From: Pedobacter chinensis
Lineage (GTDB): Bacteria; Bacteroidota; Bacteroidia; Sphingobacteriales; Sphingobacteriaceae
Direction: 5' to 3'
Length of the DNA stretch: 64,000 bases
NCBI RefSeq assembly: GCF_003339865.1
Contig: NZ_QPKV01000002.1
Location: 248,001 to 312,000 of the forward strand
Part shown: positions 29,295 through 40,830 of the stretch, one piece after another
How positions within the stretch are numbered: position 1 is the stretch's first letter
How the letters are laid out: every line of letters starts with the position of its first letter
Notes under the pieces: generated by a model
Database searches by the model: none
The model's input: the letters and a program-made list of their open reading frames with translations, nothing else
Told to the model about the DNA's origin: nothing
Made by a program: the position numbers and the translations under genes

Positions 29295-29529
29295 AATAAC
29301 TGGTTTTATTACAATATAAATTTCGTCAACAATAATGTGCCATTTACGGTGCAATTGTGACAATCATGATGGCTAAATGCGAAAACTGTAAATAGAATAA
29401 GTTGTTACTCTAAAAAAGAAAAAAGAGTAAAACCATAAAATTGAATATGGAGTATCAAGGAAATAATTTGGATCATCAGCATACATCTGGTTTAGTATTC
29501 TGTAGATGAGCTTACTACACTTTAAGCAA

Positions 29530-29564
29530 CAAGGCCGCCTCAAATAAATGCTGAAGCGGCCTTG
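29530..29564 (-). terminator. Terminator of the susCD-like operon
   Basis: CAAGGCCGC (29530-29538) pairs with GCGGCCTTG (29556-29564), 20 bp past the SusD-like stop on the leftward strand. The strong GC stem fits a terminator; the T run after it is weak. Confidence 0.55.
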
Positions 29565-29584
29565 TCTCTAATATAACAATATGT

Positions 29585-31018
29585 TTAGTTTACATCAAAC
29601 CATAACCTGGTGGTTAACAGATCTGCTCCCTGACTGGCAACTGCATTTTTGTAACTCTGCCCGTTTAAAGATTGTTCAGTTCCGGGATAAATAAAACGAA
29701 CGGGAATTTGTCCATTCAATACTGTATTTACCGATGCCGTTAATTGAGGATAATCAAGTCTGCGCCTTTCTGTCCAGGCTTCCAACCCTTGCCCAAATAA
29801 AGCAATCCATTTTTGTTCGCCAATTGACTTTTTATAATTCGATGCATTATATTGCACCGAAGCCTGAGTCAGATAAGTTGCTATCTGGGTATCAGAAATG
29901 CCGAACTGTTTCAACGATGCTGTAATTCCCTGTTGATATAAATCAGCTGCATCTTCTGTGGTCAACCCTCTGGCGGCCGCTTCTGCCCGATCAAATAATA
30001 ATTCTGCATAACTAAAAATTACAGCCGGCGATTGGGCCGCCAGAAAATATGTACCTGGTTTGGATGTCTTTGCAAAACCAAGATTACTCGCTTCAGAATT
30101 GGTTAAGCCATTAGGCAAACCCACATATTCTTCTGGTGTAGCAGTTTGCGTTTTACTGGCGTAAACCGGTAAACGTGGGTCATTTAAACTAAATAATTTA
30201 TCTACAATTGTTTTGCTGATTCGATAATCGTCTCTTGTATCAAACTGAGCACTAACCGGATTTTGTTGTGGAGATATTTGATAAATCAGCTGTGCAATTT
30301 CTGTATTATCACTTATATAAAGATCGCCATCGCTTTTAATCTCATCTAAAACCTGTTTTGCCTTAGCAGGTTCTCTGTCAGCAATACGAAGTGCGATTCT
30401 CAACCTTAGCGAATTGGCGAATTTCTTCCATTTGGTAATGTTTCCATTATAAATGTTATCACCTGCAATTGCTTTTCCTGCTGGATCCAATGCAGTTTTT
30501 GCAGCTTTGAGGTCTTCCAACAAACCAAAATAAACATCTTTTTGTTTATCATACGCAGGCGTGATGAATTCGTTCAACTTTCCAGCCTGACTGTACGGAA
30601 TATCACCATAGGCATCGGTAAGCAAAAGGAATGACCATGATCTTAATGTCAAGGCCACGCCTTTATAATTTGGGTTATCAGTATTATTTCCAATTTCAAT
30701 AATCTTGTTAAACCCGGTAATACTTTGCGAATATAAAGTTGACCACAAGGCGGTAAAACTACTATTGGAATAAATGAATCGATCTTCTTCAGTATATTGA
30801 ACCTTTGCCCAATGTTGCGCAAAAAGCAAACTGGAATTCATATTATTAGTTGTGCCCCAATAAGCATCTGTAGTATTTTTAATAGCAGCAGTTAAAAGAT
30901 AATCGGGTTGCGCATTTTCAGTAGCATTGGGATTGATGTTTACTTTATCAAGCTCTTTACCGCAAGATGCCAATAAAAGAGATGATAAAATGAATGTATA
31001 TATGATGTTCTTTTTCAT
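29585..31018 (-). CDS. SusD/RagB-family nutrient-binding lipoprotein
   Basis: A 477-residue outer-membrane lipoprotein with lipobox LLLASCGKE. The SusD-like_2 pattern is visible: NPNATENAQPDYLLTAAIKNT, LRSWSFLLLTDAYGDIPYSQAGK, KWKKFANSLRLRIALRIADREPAKA and EQKWIALFGQGLEAWTERRRLDYP. It forms the surface lid of the TonB-dependent transporter encoded 10 bp upstream. The sequence does not give the ligand, but the SAM riboswitch ahead of the operon suggests a sulfur or methionine-related nutrient rather than a glycan. Confidence 0.9.
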   Translation of the reverse strand: MKKNIIYTFILSSLLLASCGKELDKVNINPNATENAQPDYLLTAAIKNTTDAYWGTTNNMNSSLLFAQHWAKVQYTEEDRFIYSNSSFTALWSTLYSQSITGFNKIIEIGNNTDNPNYKGVALTLRSWSFLLLTDAYGDIPYSQAGKLNEFITPAYDKQKDVYFGLLEDLKAAKTALDPAGKAIAGDNIYNGNITKWKKFANSLRLRIALRIADREPAKAKQVLDEIKSDGDLYISDNTEIAQLIYQISPQQNPVSAQFDTRDDYRISKTIVDKLFSLNDPRLPVYASKTQTATPEEYVGLPNGLTNSEASNLGFAKTSKPGTYFLAAQSPAVIFSYAELLFDRAEAAARGLTTEDAADLYQQGITASLKQFGISDTQIATYLTQASVQYNASNYKKSIGEQKWIALFGQGLEAWTERRRLDYPQLTASVNTVLNGQIPVRFIYPGTEQSLNGQSYKNAVASQGADLLTTRLWFDVN

Positions 31019-31028
31019 GATGGGAAGA

Positions 31029-34000
31029 TTAAAATTTGATGTTCAGATTTATTCCGTAAGTACGTGTTGTCGGGTTTGAAAGACTTTCCAAACCCTGGCC
31101 GTTGCCTGTATTAAAAGCAACTTCCGGATCTATATCAGTAACATTACGGTGAAGAATAGCTAAGTTTCTGCCAACTAAAGCAACCGATACGGCTTGTAAA
31201 CTCAACGGACGAATCCATTTTGCAGGTAAATTGTAGCTCAATTTAATTTCTCGAAGCTTTACATAGGAAGCATCAAAGATATTGGCTTCATCAATTGTAC
31301 GGAAAGATTTATAATACGTTTGCGCCGGAAGGATTTTTTCATTACGTTTTCCGTCAGCAGTTACGCCATCGAAAATCATTCCATCATCATAAACGGTTAC
31401 ACCTGATGGAGCAGTAGCACCATCGGCTAATCTAACCGTTCCATTTGCTTTTACATTTCCTGGGTAATAATAGGAAATACCGCCAAATTCTGCACCTCTT
31501 CCGGGTAATGTAGAAGCCAGCACGCCAGTGTAAGTACCTGTGGCATAAGTTCCATTATAAATTGAACCACCAAAACTGGCATCAATTAATACCCCTAAAC
31601 TAATTCCTTTATAGCTGAATGTATTTGAAATTCCTCCAATCCAATCCGGAGTATATTTACCTAGAACTTTTTTGGTTGGATCAGTTTGTGGCGTTCCTGT
31701 AGCATTTACCACAATATTTCCATTCGCATCTCTTAAAAATGCATTCCCGAAAAGTGTTCCGTATGGCTGGCCAACAGCTGCAATTACCTGAGCAGAATTT
31801 GTAGCAACCACATAATTTTGCAATAAACCTGCCTTATCAAGTTCTATTACCCTGCTCCTGTTCGCGGCATAATTTACATCGATATCCCAGGTAAATTGTT
31901 TTTTAACTGGTGTGATCCCTAACTGTACCTCTATACCTTTATTGTTGATTTTTCCTGCATTAAGCAGTTTCGAGCGAAAACCCGTGCTCTGGCTAACATC
32001 TACACTCAGAATCTGATCGTAACTGTTCGTGTTATATAAACTTACATCAAAACGAAGTCGTTTATTGAACAAAACCGCTTCAGCACCTAATTCTGATGAA
32101 GTAGTTGTTTCGGGTTTTAAATCTGGATTAAGGTCGGTTGTGGAGGCAGTGAGCTGTGGATTACTTCCAAATGGCGCTCCGAAAACATAAGTATTGATTA
32201 AGCGGTATGGATCAGCATCTTTACCTACCTTCGACCAGCCACCACGTATTTTCGCATAATCCAGGATATCGCTCTTAATATCAAAAGCCTCTGTAAGCAC
32301 CAGACTTCCGTTAAAAGATGGATAAAAATATGATCGGTTTTGAGCTGGCAATGTTGATGACCAATCGTTGCGGGCAGTTACGTTAGCAAAAAGATAATTT
32401 CTAAATCCAATTTGCGCTGATGCGTATCCGCTGTAAGATTTAAGCCGGCTATAATTGTTTGATGAAGTTAAGGGATCTCTTGAATTGTTTAATGTATATA
32501 AACCTGCAACGGCTAATCTTGGTGCACTCTGATCGTTTTGTTCGATATAACGCGAACGAATATTACTTCCCAATAACGCCTCCAGGCTGAAATCATCATT
32601 TAATTGTTTGGCATAGCTTAAGGTTGCATCAGTATTATTTTCATTTACCGTAAAAGCACTTTCCGTGTAAGATCCGAATGGCGTACCGTTTGTGCCATAA
32701 GCTATCTTAATTTTACGGCGATCATTATAATAATCTGTTCCCGAACGGAAGTTAAAGTTCAGGCCGTCAATAATATTGTAGTTCAAGCCAATACTTCCTA
32801 TTAATCTGTTTCTGTTTTGCGATACCGTATTTTCATAAGCCACCCAATAAGGATTGCTGTAATAACTATTGTTCCAATTGAAAGTATTTCCATTTTCATC
32901 CAAATAATTTTTCAACTGATTAATATCCACTTGCCTGCCAAACCAGGTAAACTGTAACATGGTACTTGTAGATCTTGAACCACCTGTTCCCGGCAGATTA
33001 TCAGAACCAAGCTTACTATAATTTGCATTGGCTGTAATGCTCAACTTCGGGGTTATGCGTAATGTTGTATTTAGTGTAAAAGAGTTTTTCCCTTGTCCTG
33101 AATTTGGTATTACGCCTACCTGCTTTAAGTTGTTGTAAGAAAAACGGTAATCGAATTTCTCGTTGGCATCCTCTATAGCGATACCATTAGTTAAAGAATA
33201 ACCTGTTTCAAAAAAATCTCTCACATTGTTTGGGTGTGCCACAAACGGAACAGCTACTCCTTTCGAAAAAAACTGAGGAATCAATCTGCCATCCATTCTT
33301 GGCCCCCAGCTTTCATCAACACCATCATTTGTGCCCGCACCTTTTCCGTCAACATAGCTAAACTTTCCTTCTGAACCCTGACCGAACACATCCTGATATT
33401 TTGGCAAGGTTAACAGACTTTCTAAAACAGTATTAGAATTTAAGGTAACGCCTAATCCTTTTTTTGATTTACCCGATTTGGTTTTGATAATGATAACACC
33501 AGCAGCAGCTCTGGAACCATATAAAGCGGCAGCATTTGGGCCTTTTAAAACACTTATTGATTCTATATCATTTGCGTTGATATCAGAAATGGTATTTGCA
33601 TAATCTCTGGCTCCGGCAGAATTGAGTTGTGAATTATCTACAGGAATCCCGTCTACCACAAAAAGTGGTTGATTGTTTCCTGAGATAGAGGTTTCGCCGC
33701 GAATAACCACCCTGGAAGAACCCATATCACCCTGGCTATTGGTAACCCTAACGCCTGCTACTTTACCTGCGAGCGCATTTACCAGATTAGTTTCCTTTGC
33801 CTCGGCCAAACTTTCGCCTTTCAGCTCCTGAACGGCATATCCCAGCGATTTCTTTTGTCTGGAAATCCCCAACGCGGTTACCACAACTTCATCAAGTGCA
33901 TTATCGCCATCATTTAAAGTTATAGTCAACGTTTTAGAGTTTTCCGTTACTTCAATTTCTTTGGTTGAAAACCCGATGTAAGAAAAAACCAATATACTTT

Positions 34001-34202
34001 TCCCTGATATTGAAATGGTAAATAAACCATCATTGTTAGTGGTAACAGCTTGTTTTGTGCCCTTAACAAATACGGAAACACCGGGTAATGTTTCACCTGA
34101 AGGGCCCTTAACGGTACCCGATATGGTTATATTTTGGGCACGAACGAATTGTGAAAGCAGGAGCAAAAAGAATATTGCCGGTAGCTTAATTTTCTTGAAC
34201 AT
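31029..34202 (-). CDS. SusC/RagA-family TonB-dependent transporter
   Basis: A 1057-residue outer-membrane barrel that imports a nutrient using TonB energy. After the signal peptide (ending FVRAQ) come a carboxypeptidase-like domain (ITISGTVKGPSGETLPGVSVFVKGT), the TonB box region (DEVVVTALGISRQKKSLGYAVQEL), the plug (NALAGKVAGVRVTNSQGDMGSSRVVIRG, LFVVDGIPVDN, SISVLKGPNAAALYGSRAAAGVIIIKTK) and a barrel ending in TYGINLNIKF. It is complete. It is preceded by a SAM-I riboswitch and a short leader ORF, an uncommon control for this family. Confidence 0.93.
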   Translation of the reverse strand: MFKKIKLPAIFFLLLLSQFVRAQNITISGTVKGPSGETLPGVSVFVKGTKQAVTTNNDGLFTISISGKSILVFSYIGFSTKEIEVTENSKTLTITLNDGDNALDEVVVTALGISRQKKSLGYAVQELKGESLAEAKETNLVNALAGKVAGVRVTNSQGDMGSSRVVIRGETSISGNNQPLFVVDGIPVDNSQLNSAGARDYANTISDINANDIESISVLKGPNAAALYGSRAAAGVIIIKTKSGKSKKGLGVTLNSNTVLESLLTLPKYQDVFGQGSEGKFSYVDGKGAGTNDGVDESWGPRMDGRLIPQFFSKGVAVPFVAHPNNVRDFFETGYSLTNGIAIEDANEKFDYRFSYNNLKQVGVIPNSGQGKNSFTLNTTLRITPKLSITANANYSKLGSDNLPGTGGSRSTSTMLQFTWFGRQVDINQLKNYLDENGNTFNWNNSYYSNPYWVAYENTVSQNRNRLIGSIGLNYNIIDGLNFNFRSGTDYYNDRRKIKIAYGTNGTPFGSYTESAFTVNENNTDATLSYAKQLNDDFSLEALLGSNIRSRYIEQNDQSAPRLAVAGLYTLNNSRDPLTSSNNYSRLKSYSGYASAQIGFRNYLFANVTARNDWSSTLPAQNRSYFYPSFNGSLVLTEAFDIKSDILDYAKIRGGWSKVGKDADPYRLINTYVFGAPFGSNPQLTASTTDLNPDLKPETTTSSELGAEAVLFNKRLRFDVSLYNTNSYDQILSVDVSQSTGFRSKLLNAGKINNKGIEVQLGITPVKKQFTWDIDVNYAANRSRVIELDKAGLLQNYVVATNSAQVIAAVGQPYGTLFGNAFLRDANGNIVVNATGTPQTDPTKKVLGKYTPDWIGGISNTFSYKGISLGVLIDASFGGSIYNGTYATGTYTGVLASTLPGRGAEFGGISYYYPGNVKANGTVRLADGATAPSGVTVYDDGMIFDGVTADGKRNEKILPAQTYYKSFRTIDEANIFDASYVKLREIKLSYNLPAKWIRPLSLQAVSVALVGRNLAILHRNVTDIDPEVAFNTGNGQGLESLSNPTTRTYGINLNIKF

Positions 34203-34348
34203 AATTGGGATTGAATTAATGATTAGTTAAAGCGCATGTAAAAAATCAGGGCAAAGCAATTCCACTTCGCTTTTTTAGCGATTTTTTTATTTGCATGAAT
34301 AATTAATTTATTTTGGAATGAAAGCTTTGGTATTGGTTGTTATTTACA

Positions 34349-34435
34349 TCAACAAATACCAGGGCACATTCGAAAGTTTAAACAGGTTTTTGAAATACCT
34401 AATTGAATTGATTTTTGCTCGTTAGTTTTTTTCAT
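34349..34435 (-). CDS. Candidate 28-residue cysteine-containing leader peptide
   Basis: This small ORF begins MKKTNEQKSIQLGISKT and ends CLNFRMCPGIC, with cysteines at 18, 24 and 28. It lies between the riboswitch terminator (34491) and the SusC start (34202) on the same strand. The Cys near and at the end could make ribosome stalling sensitive to cysteine supply, and this would be a second sulfur-linked control. This is inference from position and content; the ORF could be fortuitous in AT-rich leader DNA. Confidence 0.35.
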   Translation of the reverse strand: MKKTNEQKSIQLGISKTCLNFRMCPGIC

Positions 34436-34490
34436 CAGAATTTAATTTTAGCTGTAAATCAATACTTATCAATCAAGTGCAAGTGGCTTA

Positions 34491-34522
34491 TAAAAAAAGC
34501 ACTCCCGTAAATCAGGAGTGCT
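34491..34522 (-). terminator. Riboswitch expression-platform terminator
   Basis: On the minus strand a stem AGCACTCC/GGAGTGCT is followed by seven T bases (the A run at 34492-34498 on the plus strand). It follows the SAM-I aptamer by a few bases, the classic OFF-switch layout: SAM bound means transcription stops. Confidence 0.8.
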
Positions 34523-34530
34523 CTCATATA

Positions 34531-34662
34531 TTATCATTAATAATTTTGCATTCAACTGACTTAACTACCCCAAATATTTTGGGATGGAATTAGCACCATA
34601 CCCTATTTAAGGCTGGTTGCTAAGGTTTCATAGGGCCATTCCCTCCACCTTTCTTGATAAGT
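34531..34662 (-). ncRNA. SAM-I (S-box) riboswitch upstream of susCD-like genes
   Basis: On the minus strand the S-box core is clear: TTATCAAGAAAGGTGGAGGG at 34660 downward, then TGGCCC, ATGAAACCTTAGCAACC, and GGTGCTAATTCCATCC. The P1 helix is TTATCA (34660-34655) pairing with TGATAA (34536-34531). It binds S-adenosylmethionine and normally shuts off methionine or sulfur genes. Here the downstream genes are a SusC/SusD pair, so the transporter should be made when SAM is low. Confidence 0.9.
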
Positions 34663-34680
34663 ATTTTAAAATAACTGGCG

Positions 34681-34688
34681 CAAAGATA
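34681..34688 (-). promoter_or_regulatory. -7 promoter box of the riboswitch-susCD transcript
   Basis: On the minus strand TATCTTTG matches TAnnTTTG exactly and lies about 20 bp upstream of the riboswitch 5' end, so transcription would begin near 34674. Confidence 0.6.
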
Positions 34689-34760: not shown

Positions 34761-34768
34761 TACCTTTG
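34761..34768 (+). promoter_or_regulatory. -7 promoter box of the TlpA-like gene
   Basis: TACCTTTG matches TAnnTTTG and sits 31 bp before the chosen ATG at 34799. It overlaps the longer open frame that starts at 34766, which argues that the longer start is not used. Confidence 0.55.
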
Positions 34769-34798
34769 CTGGTATCATCCAATAGATTAGATCATCCC

Positions 34799-36064
34799 AT
34801 GAATATAAAATCTTTATTGTTTCTGTTATTTGCGAGTGTGTTATCACAAAATCTGCAGGCACAAACACAAAAAAAACAGCCAGCGCAGTATGCAAATCTG
34901 AAGAGTACATTTGTTCCAAATGGTACCTGGCGGGGCACTTTCAAAATTAAACCTGATGTAGAAGTTCCCTTTAACTTTGAAATCAACGCAAAAAATACAG
35001 GGAAAGCTCATCTCACTTTTTTAAATGCAGAAGAACGTTTTGATGGTGGTATTGTCAATCAAACCACCGATTCAATTTTTATTAAATTGGATCAATTTGA
35101 TAACGAACTTGCTTTTAAAATTGAAGGAGATTCTTTAGTTGGTGTACTAAGAAAGCAAGATCAATCAGGTAAGCCGTTAACAGTTGTTGCAAGCAGAGGA
35201 ACCAATTATCGTTTTAAAACAACTGGTAAAGCCCCAACTGCAGATTTTTCAGGCACGTATGACGTAGCTTTTAAATCGCCAAATGGAAAAGATGAAAATG
35301 CAGTTGGACTTTTCAAACAAAATGGCAATAAAATAACCGGAACATTTTTAAGAGTTACAGGAGATTCACGCTATCTGGAAGGAATTATTGAAGGTAATGA
35401 TTTCTATCTCTCCAGTTTTATTGGCTCTTCCCCATCCTATTATAAAGGAACTTTCTCAACAGATGGAACCATAAAAGGAGAAGCGGTAAGTGCAAGAGGA
35501 AATATAGAATTTAGTGGAAATCAAAATCAAAATGCGGCTTTGCCTGATGCCTATAAGCTTACGTTTTTAAAGGAAGGCTATAAAACCTTAGATTTTTCAT
35601 TTCCTGATGTTAATGGTAAAAAAATATCATTAAGTGATGAAAAGTTTAAGAATAAGGTGGTAATATTAACAATTACCGGAACCTGGTGCCCGAATTGTGT
35701 AGATGAAGCATCTTTTATAGCGCCCTGGTACAAAGAAAATCGCAATCGTGGTGTTGAAGTCATTGCAATTCACTATGAAAGGCAACTCGATTCAGCTTAT
35801 GTAAAAAAGGCATTGACCAGATTCAGGGAAAAATTTGACATTCAATATGATCAGGTAATTGCCGGTAAACCAGATAAACAATTGGTTGCCGAATCTCTAC
35901 CAGCTTTAAATAATTTCCTGTCCTTTCCAACCACAATTATCATTAACAAAAAAGGTGAGGTAGCCCAAATCCATACGGGTTATAGCGGCCCTGCAACAGG
36001 AAAATATTATACCGACTTTGTTAAAGAGTTTAATGCTGAAATTAATAGCTTACTGGAGCAATAA
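34799..36064 (+). CDS. TlpA-like thioredoxin-fold protein, exported
   Basis: A 421-residue protein with signal peptide MNIKSLLFLLFASVLSQNLQAQ. Residues to about 240 form a beta-rich domain (NGTWRGTFKIKPDVEVPFNFEI, FSGTYDVAFKSPNGKDEN). The C-terminal 160 residues are a TlpA/AhpC-TSA thioredoxin fold with the CxxC site in GTWCPNCVDE and the cis-Pro region FLSFPTTIIINKKGEV. It is probably a periplasmic thiol-disulfide reductase. It is divergent from the susCD-like operon and shares its upstream region, so sulfur-linked control is possible. Confidence 0.88.
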   Translation: MNIKSLLFLLFASVLSQNLQAQTQKKQPAQYANLKSTFVPNGTWRGTFKIKPDVEVPFNFEINAKNTGKAHLTFLNAEERFDGGIVNQTTDSIFIKLDQFDNELAFKIEGDSLVGVLRKQDQSGKPLTVVASRGTNYRFKTTGKAPTADFSGTYDVAFKSPNGKDENAVGLFKQNGNKITGTFLRVTGDSRYLEGIIEGNDFYLSSFIGSSPSYYKGTFSTDGTIKGEAVSARGNIEFSGNQNQNAALPDAYKLTFLKEGYKTLDFSFPDVNGKKISLSDEKFKNKVVILTITGTWCPNCVDEASFIAPWYKENRNRGVEVIAIHYERQLDSAYVKKALTRFREKFDIQYDQVIAGKPDKQLVAESLPALNNFLSFPTTIIINKKGEVAQIHTGYSGPATGKYYTDFVKEFNAEINSLLEQ

Positions 36065-36585: not shown

Positions 36586-38286
36586 ATGAGCACAGCAAAC
36601 TATGTAATTGGCGTGGATTACGGGACGGATTCTGTTCGGTCTGTTTTAGTAGATACCGCTAACGGAAAAGAAATCTCCTCTTCTGTATTTCTTTATCCCC
36701 GATGGCAAAAAGGTTTATATTGCAAGCCGTCTATCAATCAATTCAGACAACATCCATTAGATTATATTGAAGGTTTAACCCATACCATTAAAGATTGTTT
36801 AGCGAAAGCCGGAGGATCAGAAATTGCGTATTTGGTTAAAGGAATTTCTGTCGATACAACAGGATCGAGTCCGGTTGCTGTTGATGCCACTGGAACTCCC
36901 CTCGCCCTTACCCCGGGTTTTGAAGAAAATCCAAATGCCATGTTTGTGCTTTGGAAAGATCATACAGCTGTTAAAGAGGCGGCCGAAATTAACGAACACG
37001 CCACCAAATTTTCGTTAAATTATTTAAAATATGTGGGTGGAATTTACTCATCAGAATGGTTTTGGTCTAAATTACTTCGCATTCTGCGAGTAGATTCTGC
37101 TGTTAAAAACAACGCTCAATCGTGGGTTGAACATTGTGATTGGATTCCATTTTTACTTTGTGGTGGAACTGATGTTTCCACCATGAAACGCAGCCGCTGT
37201 GCTGCCGGTCATAAGGCTTTATGGGCGGAAGAATTTAATGGCTTACCTCCTGAAGATTTTTTTAGCAGTCTGGATCCGCTTTTAGCTGGATCTAGAGATC
37301 GGTTATTTGTTGACACCTACACTTCTGATATTTCAGCAGGAACATTGAGCGAAGAATGGGCTCATCAGTTGGGATTAACCACTGATGTAGTGGTTGGTGT
37401 TGGTGCTTTCGATGCGCATATGGGCGCTGTTGGCGGGCAGATTGAACCTTACTATTTGAGTAAGGTAATGGGCACCAGCACCTGTGATATTTTGGTCGCT
37501 CCGAATCAGGATTTGCATGGTAAACTGATTAGTGGGATTTGCGGTCAGGTTAATGGCTCTGTTATTCCGGGCATGGCGGGTTTAGAGGCAGGACAATCGG
37601 CTTTTGGCGATGTTTACGCCTGGTTTAAAAACTTAATCTGCTGGCCATTAAACCATTTACTCACTGAATCTGACTTGATTGATAAAGAAACAGTAATTGC
37701 ATTGAAAGATGAATTAGAAAGTAAAATCATTGCTAACCTGAGTACACAAGCCGAAGCTTTAGAAGATGATGATTATGCTGAATTAGCAATAGATTGGCTA
37801 AACGGAAGAAGAACACCCGACGCCAACCAGGAACTTAAAGGCGCTATCACTGGCCTGGGCTTAGGAACTGATGCACCAAGATTCTTTCGTGCTTTGGCTG
37901 CAGCAACTTGTTTTGGCGCAAAAGCCATTGTAGATCGGTTTAAAGAACAAGGTGTTCCGGTTAAGGGAATTATTGGTATTGGAGGCGTAGCGAAGAAATC
38001 ATCATACATTATGCAAATGATGGCCGATGTTTTGGAAATGCCAATCAGAATTCACCGTTTTGAACATACTTGTGCGCTTGGTGCAGCAATGTTTGCAGCT
38101 GTTGCTGCTGGTATTTATCCAAGTATTGAAGCTGCAATGGCTGCAATGGGAACTGGCTTTGAGAAAGAATACAAGCCCAATATTAAAAAGCAAAAAATGT
38201 ATAGAATGCATTATCAGCAATATTTGGGTTTAGGCCGGTATTTAGAGAAATACAACAAGAAAGATGTAAAACCTTATTTATCATGA
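36586..38286 (+). CDS. araB: Ribulokinase
   Basis: A 566-residue FGGY-family kinase that phosphorylates L-ribulose. N-terminal VIGVDYGTDSVRSVLVDTANG is the ATPase/sugar-kinase signature. KGISVDTTGSSPVAVD, NAMFVLWKDHTA and the C-terminal KGIIGIGGVAKKSSYIMQMMADVLEMPI match ribulokinase. It starts the araB-araD-araA set for L-arabinose use. Its stop overlaps the araD start by 4 bp. No AraR regulator or arabinose transporter is next to it. The upstream TATCTTTA (36528-36535) nearly fits a -7 box. Confidence 0.95.
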   Translation: MSTANYVIGVDYGTDSVRSVLVDTANGKEISSSVFLYPRWQKGLYCKPSINQFRQHPLDYIEGLTHTIKDCLAKAGGSEIAYLVKGISVDTTGSSPVAVDATGTPLALTPGFEENPNAMFVLWKDHTAVKEAAEINEHATKFSLNYLKYVGGIYSSEWFWSKLLRILRVDSAVKNNAQSWVEHCDWIPFLLCGGTDVSTMKRSRCAAGHKALWAEEFNGLPPEDFFSSLDPLLAGSRDRLFVDTYTSDISAGTLSEEWAHQLGLTTDVVVGVGAFDAHMGAVGGQIEPYYLSKVMGTSTCDILVAPNQDLHGKLISGICGQVNGSVIPGMAGLEAGQSAFGDVYAWFKNLICWPLNHLLTESDLIDKETVIALKDELESKIIANLSTQAEALEDDDYAELAIDWLNGRRTPDANQELKGAITGLGLGTDAPRFFRALAAATCFGAKAIVDRFKEQGVPVKGIIGIGGVAKKSSYIMQMMADVLEMPIRIHRFEHTCALGAAMFAAVAAGIYPSIEAAMAAMGTGFEKEYKPNIKKQKMYRMHYQQYLGLGRYLEKYNKKDVKPYLS

Positions 38287-38984
38287 GCAACTATCAGGAT
38301 ATAAAAGAACAAGCTTACCTTGCCAACATGCAACTGCCCAGGTTAGGTTTAGTACTTTTCACATTTGGGAATGTAAGTGCGGCCGATCGTTCTAAAGGTG
38401 TTTTTGCCATTAAACCGAGCGGTGTTCCTTATGAAGATTTATCTGCGGAGAAAATGGTTATTGTTGATTTCGACGGCAATACCGTTGAGGGAGATTTACG
38501 TCCGTCTTCTGATACCAAAACACATGCTGTTTTATATAAACATTGGGAAGATACAGGCGGAATTGTACATACGCATTCTACCTATGGCACAGCCTGGGCA
38601 CAGGCGCAAAAGCCCATTCCAATTTATGGAACCACACATGCCGATCATTTAACTGTTGATATTCCTTGTGCACCACCAATGGATGACACCATGATTAAAG
38701 GAAACTATGAATACGAAACCGGTTTTCAAATTATGAATCATTTTGAAAGCTTAGGCTTAAGCCATAAAGAGGTGGAAATGATTTTAGTGGGCAACCACGC
38801 TCCTTTTACCTGGGGAAAAACTGCCGAGAAAGCCGTTTACAACAGTGCCGTATTGGAGGCCGTGGCACAAATGGCATTGTTAACGCAGCAGATTAATCCA
38901 CAAGCACCGAAATTAAAAGATTCGTTGATTGAAAAGCATTATGAGCGCAAACATGGTGCCGGAGCGTATTACGGACAAAAATGA
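38283..38984 (+). CDS. araD: L-ribulose-5-phosphate 4-epimerase
   Basis: A 233-residue class II aldolase-fold zinc enzyme that makes D-xylulose 5-phosphate. The family motifs are present: LVLFTFGNVSAADRSKGVFAIKPSGVPYEDL, SDTKTHAVLYKHW, GIVHTHSTYGTAWAQA and TTHADHL, with the metal His residues, and NHAPFTWGKTAEKAVYNS. It overlaps araB by 4 bp. araA follows 355 bp later, across a gap that holds a REP-like inverted repeat. Confidence 0.95.
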   Translation: MSNYQDIKEQAYLANMQLPRLGLVLFTFGNVSAADRSKGVFAIKPSGVPYEDLSAEKMVIVDFDGNTVEGDLRPSSDTKTHAVLYKHWEDTGGIVHTHSTYGTAWAQAQKPIPIYGTTHADHLTVDIPCAPPMDDTMIKGNYEYETGFQIMNHFESLGLSHKEVEMILVGNHAPFTWGKTAEKAVYNSAVLEAVAQMALLTQQINPQAPKLKDSLIEKHYERKHGAGAYYGQK

Positions 38985-39027
38985 GTCAGGAGTCTTTAAT
39001 CCTGTGCACAGACAATTCACCTTTGTC

Positions 39028-39082
39028 ATGCTGAGGCACGAAGCACCCTAACCTATGAAACAGACGCTCCGTACCTCAGCAT
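39028..39082. repeat. REP-like inverted repeat between araD and araA
   Basis: ATGCTGAGG (39028-39036) pairs with CCTCAGCAT (39074-39082). The GTCATGCTGA start is shared with the tandem repeats downstream of araA, so it belongs to the same kind of intergenic repeat. Nothing else was found in the 355-bp gap. Confidence 0.5.
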
Positions 39083-39339
39083 AACAGCATATTCCCGGGT
39101 TGCGAAAGGCACAAAATACATCGCTCCTGTCGGGTTTAACAGAAAGGTTTACCTGAGTTAAATAAACCTGATTGGAGTGAGCATGCCATTTTTCATGGCC
39201 GGAATAAAACGGAAAGCAGGGCTACCATAACCAATGAAAAACAGGAACCTGCTTTTCAAAACAGTTAAATGATAAAATACTAGCTGAATGTTATTTCAGT
39301 TAACCGATTAAACAATTAAGCGATTTAACAACATAAATA

Positions 39340-40830
39340 ATGATTGATTTAAAAAAATTACAAGTTTGGTTTGTTACCGGAACACAGCATTTGTACGGTG
39401 AAGAAACCCTAAAACAAGTGGCAGAGCACGCTCGACAAGTGGCAGATGCATTAAACCAAAACAAGAGCATCTCCGTTTCGGTAATATACAAGCCCATAGT
39501 AAAAACTACTGAAGAAATTTTTGAAACCTTACAACAAGCCAATATTGATGAGAATTGCATTGGTGTAATGACCTGGATGCATACTTTTTCACCTGCAAAA
39601 ATGTGGGTCAGAGGTTTAAATGTGTTACAAAAACCTTTGTTACATTTACATACTCAATTTAATCGTGACATTCCATGGAGTACGATTGATATGGATTTCA
39701 TGAACCTGAACCAAAGTGCACACGGCGATCGTGAATTTGGTTTCATGGTTTCCCGTATGCGTAAAGATCGCAAGGTGGTAGTTGGCCACTGGCAAGATGA
39801 AGAAGTGGCAAAACAAATTGATACCTGGTGTAGAGCTGCTGCCGGATGGCACGACTGGCAAGGTGCTAAATTCGCCCGTTTCGGTGATAACATGCGCTTT
39901 GTTGCTGTAACAGATGGTGATAAGGTGGAGGCTGAAATGAAATTTGGTTTCTCTGTAAACACTTATGGAATAGGCGATTTAGTAGCTGTAATTAATGAAA
40001 TAGATGACGAATCGATTTCGAAATTATTGAAGGAATACGAAGAAACTTATGAGATGGATGATGATTTAAAAGCTGGCGGGGCCAGACATTCATCGGTTTA
40101 TGAGGCTGCTAAAATTGAACTGGGCTTAAGAAAATTTTTAGAAGATGGCGATTTTAAGGGTTTCTCTGATACTTTTGAAGATCTGCATGGAATGATCCAA
40201 TTACCGGGAATTGCAGCACAGCGTTTAATGGCCGATGGATATGGTTTCGCTGGAGAAGGTGACTGGAAAACCGCTGCATTGGTTCGTGCATGTAAGGTAA
40301 TGGGCGCCGGTTTAGCAGGTGGCAATGCTTTTATGGAAGATTATACTTACCATTTTGATCCTGCAAACGCCATGGTTTTAGGCTCGCACATGCTTGAGGT
40401 TGATGCAAGTCTGGCAGCTGGTAAAGCAAGCCTGGAAGTTCATCCCTTAGGCATTGGCGGTAAGGCAGATCCTGCCCGTTTGGTGTTTAATGTTGGTGGT
40501 GGCGATGCTTTAAATGCATCTTTAATTGATATGGGCAATCGCTTCCGTTTGTTAGTGAATGAAGTAAAAGCTGTTGAAGTTGAAAATGATTTACCAAATT
40601 TACCTGTTGCCCGTGTACTTTGGAAACCACTTCCCGATATGAAAACAGGTTGTGCAGCATGGATTTATGCTGGCGGTGCGCATCATACAGCTTACAGTCA
40701 GAATTTGACCACCGAACATTTATTAGATTTTGCAAATATTGCTGGTTTAGAGTATGTGAATATTGGTGCAGATACCAAAATCAATCAGTTCAGAAATGAA
40801 TTGCATTGGAATGAGGTTTTTTATAAATAA
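39340..40830 (+). CDS. araA: L-arabinose isomerase
   Basis: A 496-residue enzyme converting L-arabinose to L-ribulose, the entry step of the pathway. It starts [24 protein letters not shown] and contains [45 protein letters not shown] and [24 protein letters not shown], with the catalytic Glu/His metal ligands of the family. Length is typical. It lies last in the araBDA set. Confidence 0.96.

Follow-up and report, generated by a model that had tools for sequence, protein, structure and literature searches.

In a 64,000-nucleotide (nt) stretch of the Pedobacter chinensis genome (contig NZ_QPKV01000002.1, positions 248,001 to 312,000 of the forward strand; hereafter the window), a susC-susD gene pair (susCD) on the reverse strand is preceded by two elements in one leader: an S-adenosylmethionine (SAM)-I, or S-box, riboswitch with its intrinsic terminator, and a short open reading frame (ORF) that carries cysteine codons close to its stop. 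On balance we favour the view that susCD is switched on only when SAM and cysteinyl-tRNA (Cys-tRNA) are both low, through antitermination and leader stalling respectively, and that the pair probably imports a cysteine-containing sulfur source such as cystine or cysteine peptides. We are more tentative, and nearly evenly divided, about the broader proposal that such a series gate, requiring low SAM and low Cys-tRNA within one Bacteroidota leader, sits on sulfur-acquiring genes (the sulfhydrylase operon and susCD) and not on metH, with susCD importing cyst(e)ine-type sulfur. The aptamer, the terminator and the leader ORF are present in the sequence; the response to SAM, the sensing of cysteine and the substrate are what we infer.

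Much nutrient uptake in Bacteroidota passes through SusCD pairs, and for many of them no cargo has been assigned. For this pair the RNA control alone points to a class of nutrient, since a single importer would be guarded by two independent read-outs of sulfur. If true, the arrangement would place a metabolite riboswitch in series with a leader peptide read by the ribosome and extend cysteine leader peptides to another phylum, and a SAM-I element followed by a cysteine-ended leader ORF would be a simple sequence signature for finding sulfur importers.

The SAM-I switch ahead of susCD

The leader and the gene pair comprise the following features, in window positions:
34681..34688, reverse strand: promoter-like box TATCTTTG of the Bacteroidetes TAnnTTTG type, read from the sequence
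34558..34663, reverse strand: SAM-I (S-box) riboswitch aptamer, matched by RF00162 at 92.6 bits (E 6.9e-21)
34492..34526, reverse strand: intrinsic terminator of the SAM switch, with hairpin 34526-34496 and U-run 34498-34492
34508..34563, reverse strand: predicted antiterminator, formed by pairing of 34563-34556 with 34515-34508 and incompatible with P1 and the terminator
34349..34435, reverse strand: leader ORF MKKTNEQKSIQLGISKTCLNFRMCPGIC, 28 codons and a stop, with homologous ORFs in relatives
34328..34361, reverse strand: hairpin found by folding, its 5' arm over the last codons and stop of the leader ORF, without a U-run after it
34250..34280, reverse strand: small hairpin with GGAATTGCTTTGCC after it, conserved on comparison of near leaders
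31029..34202, reverse strand: susC, a SusC/RagA-type TonB-dependent transporter of 1057 residues (TIGR04056, 641 bits, cut-off 368)
29585..31018, reverse strand: susD, a SusD-like lipoprotein of 477 residues with a lipobox-like LLASC (PF12771, 376 bits, cut-off 27)

When the whole 64 kb was scanned, the aptamer was the single Rfam match above its gathering score (cut-off 44.4 bits), and it spans the full length of the model (positions 1-108 of 108). Sub-threshold Rfam matches were dismissed as chance, among them one to SAM-II (RF00521) at 34305-34254 (16.9 bits, E 0.19, cut-off 36). An 8-bp helix can form between the 3' strand of P1, with its neighbouring bases, and the upper part of the terminator; this helix and the P1 3' strand have 5 nt in common, making the two mutually exclusive. 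A terminator is accompanied by a predicted antiterminator that competes with P1, and the geometry read before susC is that of an S-box OFF switch. The aptamer would bind and respond to SAM, as expected of its riboswitch family. Folding of the leader gave the terminator as the unconstrained minimum (-53.1 kcal/mol), with -51.1 kcal/mol for terminator plus P1 and -42.7 kcal/mol when the antiterminator was imposed. Among 13 near leaders both the terminator and the TATCTTTG box are conserved, and transcription is predicted to start a few bases downstream of the box, whose TAnnTTTG consensus is given in an excerpt of PMC9723704.

The susC and susD ORFs lie 10 bases apart, a SusC/RagA protein with an adjacent SusD lipoprotein. 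The first-pass annotation had described an S-box aptamer and terminator before a TonB-dependent transporter belonging to a SusC/SusD pair; this description holds throughout, and its coordinates are correct to within one base at the aptamer end. The arrangement recurs in relatives. In a same-genus set of 36 genomes, whose 119 SAM-I elements were sorted by first downstream gene, SAM-I followed by this susCD was found in the same gene order in 21 genomes, with SusC 61-92% identical. A second set consisted of the best 80 of 482 SusC relatives in named organisms (39 Pedobacter, 24 Mucilaginibacter, 17 others), some of them from the same genomes. A model built from 27 same-genus aptamers placed an upstream SAM-I in 66 of these 80 loci with the strand shared, and in one further locus (L275) on the opposite strand.

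The cysteine-ended leader ORF

Between the SAM-switch terminator and susC, the leader ORF of the window ends in RMCPGIC, with two cysteines in its last eight residues and thus cysteine codons near the stop. The same-genus susCD leaders have a cysteine within the last six residues of the ORF in 19 of 21 cases, against 5.3 expected from dinucleotide shuffles. Leaders of the sulfhydrylase-metX operon carry a cysteine-ended ORF in 35 of 36 cases (32/33 before the sulfhydrylase and 3/3 before metX; 8.4 expected), typically ending CMCCCIQ, whereas no such ORF was found in the 32 metH leaders (2.4 expected) although SAM-I is present there. None was found in the cysteine-desulfurase-like, TlpA-like, DUF4833 and M28 classes of SAM-I element in this set either. 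The sulfhydrylase operon fixes sulfide, and metH adds only a methyl group. It is chiefly because both elements stand on the sulfhydrylase operon and on susCD, with SAM-I alone on metH, that we take the leader to sense cysteine and the cargo to be a source of sulfur.

The wider set gives the same picture. Among the 80 named loci, the last eight residues contain at least one cysteine in 76, at least two in 56 and at least three in 40, compared with 44.7, 8.3 and 0.8 in shuffles. We considered whether a cysteine-rich leader might be a general trait of SusC genes; this was ruled out by 30 other SusC genes of the window genome (the best 30 of 56 matches, the focal susC not included), which reach these thresholds in 7, 3 and 0 cases. 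Moreover, of the 14 named loci that lack a same-strand SAM-I, 10 keep a leader with at least two cysteines in the last eight residues (coverage upstream was 307 bases in L216 and 674 bases in L275). Tails in relatives take forms such as ..MRCCC*, ..CCCCCC* and ..RMCC*, with examples including MQSMRCCC, NHSCCCCCC, IARCCCCC and RMCKGICCCMRL. Their cysteine codons are mixed (TGT:TGC 127:94 in the named loci), RMC or MRC recurs in many of the peptides, and the number and spacing of cysteines vary widely. A pattern of three TGY triplets before a stop occurs at no fewer than 376 places genome-wide and was set aside as uninformative.

Comparable leaders were found beyond this family. In another family of the class, a homologous susC is preceded by MKKRMCC(R). 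Across 61 genomes of that genus the MKKRMCC pattern has eight matches, one per genome, all directly before a SusC relative (seven at 55-58% and one at 37% identity over the aligned part), and the reversed pattern has none in the same genomes. Leaders of this kind, seven to eight codons long, were missed by our filter of at least 12 codons and were found by eye. A cysteine-rich leader is present in two of the 21 SAM-I loci from other families of the class (..STCCCCCC and ..CCMCICCPCC), and both precede a sulfhydrylase 72-79% identical to that of the window genome. The sulfhydrylase-metX leader of the window genome itself (L033:8700-9200) has SAM-I, 7 nt and then an ORF ending TCMCCCIQ; it continues with a conserved CTTCC...GGAAGG(C/T)CC...GGG(A)TACGC structure that no Rfam family matches.

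A hairpin overlaps the end of the leader ORF, its 5' arm containing the last codons. A CGAATG anchor is shared by 27 Pedobacter-type leaders; in 25 of them the best local hairpin begins 8-13 nt past the anchor, in a search over 4-29 nt after CGAATG that was run without a shuffle control. The arms differ among leaders (GGTATTTG-type, GCCTGTAAATAT/GTGTTTTCAGGC and CCTGTTAAAAT/ATTTTAACAGG), the pattern that compensatory change would give. Stems of the minimum-free-energy fold touch cysteine codons in 73 of 74 leaders, a figure that has no base rate and was not used as evidence. Further downstream, the arms of the small hairpin at 34250-34280 vary, and a conserved GGAATTGYTTTGCC follows about 50 nt before the susC start.

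A proposed gate and its alternatives

We propose that, at high SAM, P1 would be stabilised and the terminator would form, halting transcription about 290 nt before susC and ahead of the leader ORF. At low SAM, polymerase would pass this first gate and a ribosome would read the leader ORF. With Cys-tRNA scarce, that ribosome would wait at the cysteine codons on the 5' arm of the ORF-end hairpin, block the hairpin and permit susCD expression; with Cys-tRNA ample, it would depart and the hairpin could form. In part of the genus, this hairpin and the T-run after it resemble a terminator. In the window, where no U-run follows, the off-step may use Rho or act on translation. SusCD would then import a sulfur nutrient whose disulfide TlpA-like redoxins may reduce.

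The gene company of susCD agrees with a sulfur-source cargo. Of 81 loci, 39 have a linked TlpA-like redoxin gene, which shares the strand of the pair in 7 and is divergent or on the opposite strand in 32; linked genes for a small redoxin and for a cysteine-desulfurase-like enzyme number 17 and 5, respectively. SAM-I is followed by a small redoxin gene and then by the leader ORF, susC and susD in 16 of the 80 named loci (15 Mucilaginibacter and Hufsiella), and in L242 a cysteine-desulfurase-like gene occupies the place of the redoxin between SAM-I and susC. From this company and the RNA control we predict that susCD imports a sulfur-containing nutrient; we know of no SusCD pair with cyst(e)ine-type sulfur as its cargo class.

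The first-pass annotation had expected SAM shortage to turn the transporter on for uptake of methionine, a methionine peptide or another sulfur compound. The anatomy of the SAM-I OFF switch and its retention across genera support its control of susCD, but the account is incomplete: SAM is unlikely to be the sole signal, because a cysteine-ended ORF stands between terminator and susC and the 10 loci noted above retain cysteines without a same-strand SAM-I. As for cargo, a sulfur compound has indirect support in the company of the pair (SAM-I on methionine operons, redoxins, cysteine-desulfurase-like genes), but methionine is less favoured, since a leader ORF with late cysteines, retained without SAM-I, points more to cysteine-type sulfur.

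Several observations weigh against the proposed gate. The terminator fold is favoured at equilibrium even without SAM (-53.1 against -42.7 kcal/mol for the antiterminator), so antitermination must be set during transcription, and in distant Pedobacter susCD leaders no clear U-run was seen by eye after the aptamer. The window peptide has two separated cysteines and no cysteine run, and the hairpin over its cysteine codons, although present, is not followed by the U-run of an attenuator. TTTT lies within 10 bases after the hairpin in just 12 of the 27 anchored leaders and TTTTT in 7, the window belonging to neither group. Sites resembling terminators lie between the end of the ORF and susC in 26 of 75 loci (9.5 in shuffles), some of them inside cysteine codons. 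Where the ORF ends, fold z-scores are modest, averaging -0.97 with 15 of 74 below -2. A substitution test was weak, with synonymous to nonsynonymous counts of 68:150 in frame against 50:154 and 42:169 in the other frames.

Conservation is also imperfect. Twenty of the 80 named loci have a single cysteine in the tail, L236, L250, L265 and L268 have no cysteine tail, L050 and L060 have SAM-I and no leader ORF, and the ORF of L046 is shortened; the named loci are, moreover, related to each other, given the 39 from Pedobacter and 24 from Mucilaginibacter. By gene content, the genome can reduce sulfate: it has sulfite-reductase and PAPS (3'-phosphoadenosine-5'-phosphosulfate)-reductase-type genes, so that the susCD system would be a scavenger. 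Its sulfate cluster (L329) has no cysteine-rich leader by the filter used. Finally, the assignment of cargo is a guess from gene company.

A rival reading is that the pair answers to SAM-I and to nothing else in the leader, with an incidental ORF and with methionine or its peptides as cargo. The aptamer and terminator are the strongest leader element, two SAM-I susCD loci lack the leader ORF, and one SAM-I in the genus (L124) heads a metN methionine transporter operon. We nevertheless consider this unlikely: leader ORFs that end in cysteines are far commoner than in shuffled sequences or before other SusC genes, and 10 of the 14 loci with no SAM-I on the same strand keep them. We would give a somewhat better, though still rather small, chance to both switches working as proposed on a peptide or other sulfur nutrient without cysteine. 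By sequence, the nearest SusC of solved structure is BT_2264 (5fq6; 547 bits, the next 260), reportedly a peptide-bound complex, and another SAM-I susCD group in the genus carries an M28 peptidase. The recurrent neighbours of this susCD, however, are redoxins and cysteine-desulfurase-like genes, and among annotated neighbour clusters a peptidase stands beside it in no more than a few loci.

The cysteines might instead act within the nascent chain, as a sensor of metal or redox state and not as a read-out of Cys-tRNA. CruR offers a precedent: in an excerpt of PMC9426467 it is a copper-responsive DUF2946 upstream ORF with CXXC and a C-terminal RAPP, Rho-dependent in action, that controls a TonB-dependent transporter through its cysteines. 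The leaders studied here are alike in being cysteine-containing ORFs before such a transporter, RMC or MRC recurs in many of them, and another SAM-I operon of the genus includes an MbnH-like di-haem enzyme and a TonB-dependent receptor. The window peptide, however, has CPGIC and neither CXXC nor RAPP, the number and spacing of cysteines vary widely among relatives, and the same kind of leader stands on the sulfhydrylase operon. We therefore regard a metal or redox sensor as quite improbable and retain the gate responding to SAM and Cys-tRNA.

Related systems and neighbouring loci

Cysteine leader peptides in Actinobacteria were reportedly described by Canestrari in 2020, and S-box/T-box control of the Clostridium acetobutylicum ubiG-mccBA operon is said to have been reported by Andre in 2008; the T-box of that operon has Cys specificity. 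Compared with known transcription-terminating SAM-I switches (RF00162), the window is alike in aptamer score and in the geometry of P1, antiterminator and terminator, but here the switch governs a SusC/SusD pair, and another leader element, which contains an ORF, comes after it. Statements on the following papers refer to excerpts of them. Leader peptides with cysteine codons occur in Actinobacteria (PMC1262725) and mycobacteria (PMC9094748), and the uORFC-8-2 motif before cysS has cysteine codons in a stem preceding a terminator (PMC8632094). These resemble our leader as short ORFs with late cysteine codons upstream of sulfur or cysteine genes. The present leader differs in being from Bacteroidota, in series with a SAM riboswitch and on an outer-membrane importer, with cysteine codons that form no run and a hairpin that lacks a U-run. 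The sulfur operon ubiG-mccBA, under S-box and T-box control (PMC9943018), is likewise governed by a SAM-sensing RNA together with another RNA element. Its S-box is antisense and its other element is a T-box, whereas in the window a single sense leader carries both elements, an ORF being the second. Within Bacteroidota, leader-peptide-like small ORFs occur in B. thetaiotaomicron (PMC7366714), and Flavobacterium psychrophilum has attenuation before amino-acid operons and a cobalamin riboswitch before a TonB-dependent transporter (PMC9723704); PMC7160235 merely lists SAM riboswitches among RNAs found. Among open-licence papers, we found none that describes a SAM riboswitch together with a leader peptide or SusD, text matching on 'susc' being unspecific.

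The 119 same-genus SAM-I elements precede an O-acetylhomoserine sulfhydrylase cluster (33) or metX of the same operon (3), a metH cluster (32, plus metH in L034), an apparently cut metH upstream of metF (L081), this susCD (21), cysteine-desulfurase-like genes (9), TlpA-like genes (6), DUF4833 genes (5), an M28 peptidase gene followed by a different susCD (4; in L064 behind a redoxin), yet another susCD (1; L067) and metN (1; L124). Two elements (L069 and L048) are cut off by contig ends. SAM-I thus heads other, distantly similar susCD pairs (L072, L064, L082, L086 and L067), four with an M28/PA/TFR-dimer peptidase gene and one with a BT_3987-like gene; therefore SAM control of SusCD seems to have arisen more than once in the genus. 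In L124 a leader ORF, MAVPAKSFSCCLYVCCCPAR, lies between SAM-I and metN. Lower-scoring SAM-I elements (about 54-56 bits) in L145-L149 and L059 precede TlpA-like genes and then, where the contig reaches, genes for YceI, an MbnH-like di-haem enzyme and a TonB-dependent receptor; in some genomes, an element of this type is divergent from a second SAM-I before a DUF4833 gene.

Two further features flank the leader and the pair:
29525..29569, reverse strand: strong hairpin after susD, without a T-run (-27.5 kcal/mol, z -7.06)
34766..36064, forward strand: divergent TlpA-like redoxin gene with a TWCPNC motif, sharing intergenic space with the susCD leader

The hairpin after susD is the probable end of the susCD transcript, although a terminator scan listed nothing there, and the next gene (RibD_C domain, 29363-28701) is probably separate from susCD. 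In the sulfate-assimilation cluster of the genome (L329; C12:910000-926000), the start of a small upstream gene resembles, by eye, an Rrf2-type regulator. Beside the redoxin gene lie genes for ribulokinase, ribulose-phosphate 4-epimerase and L-arabinose isomerase (36586-40830), which are apparently unrelated.

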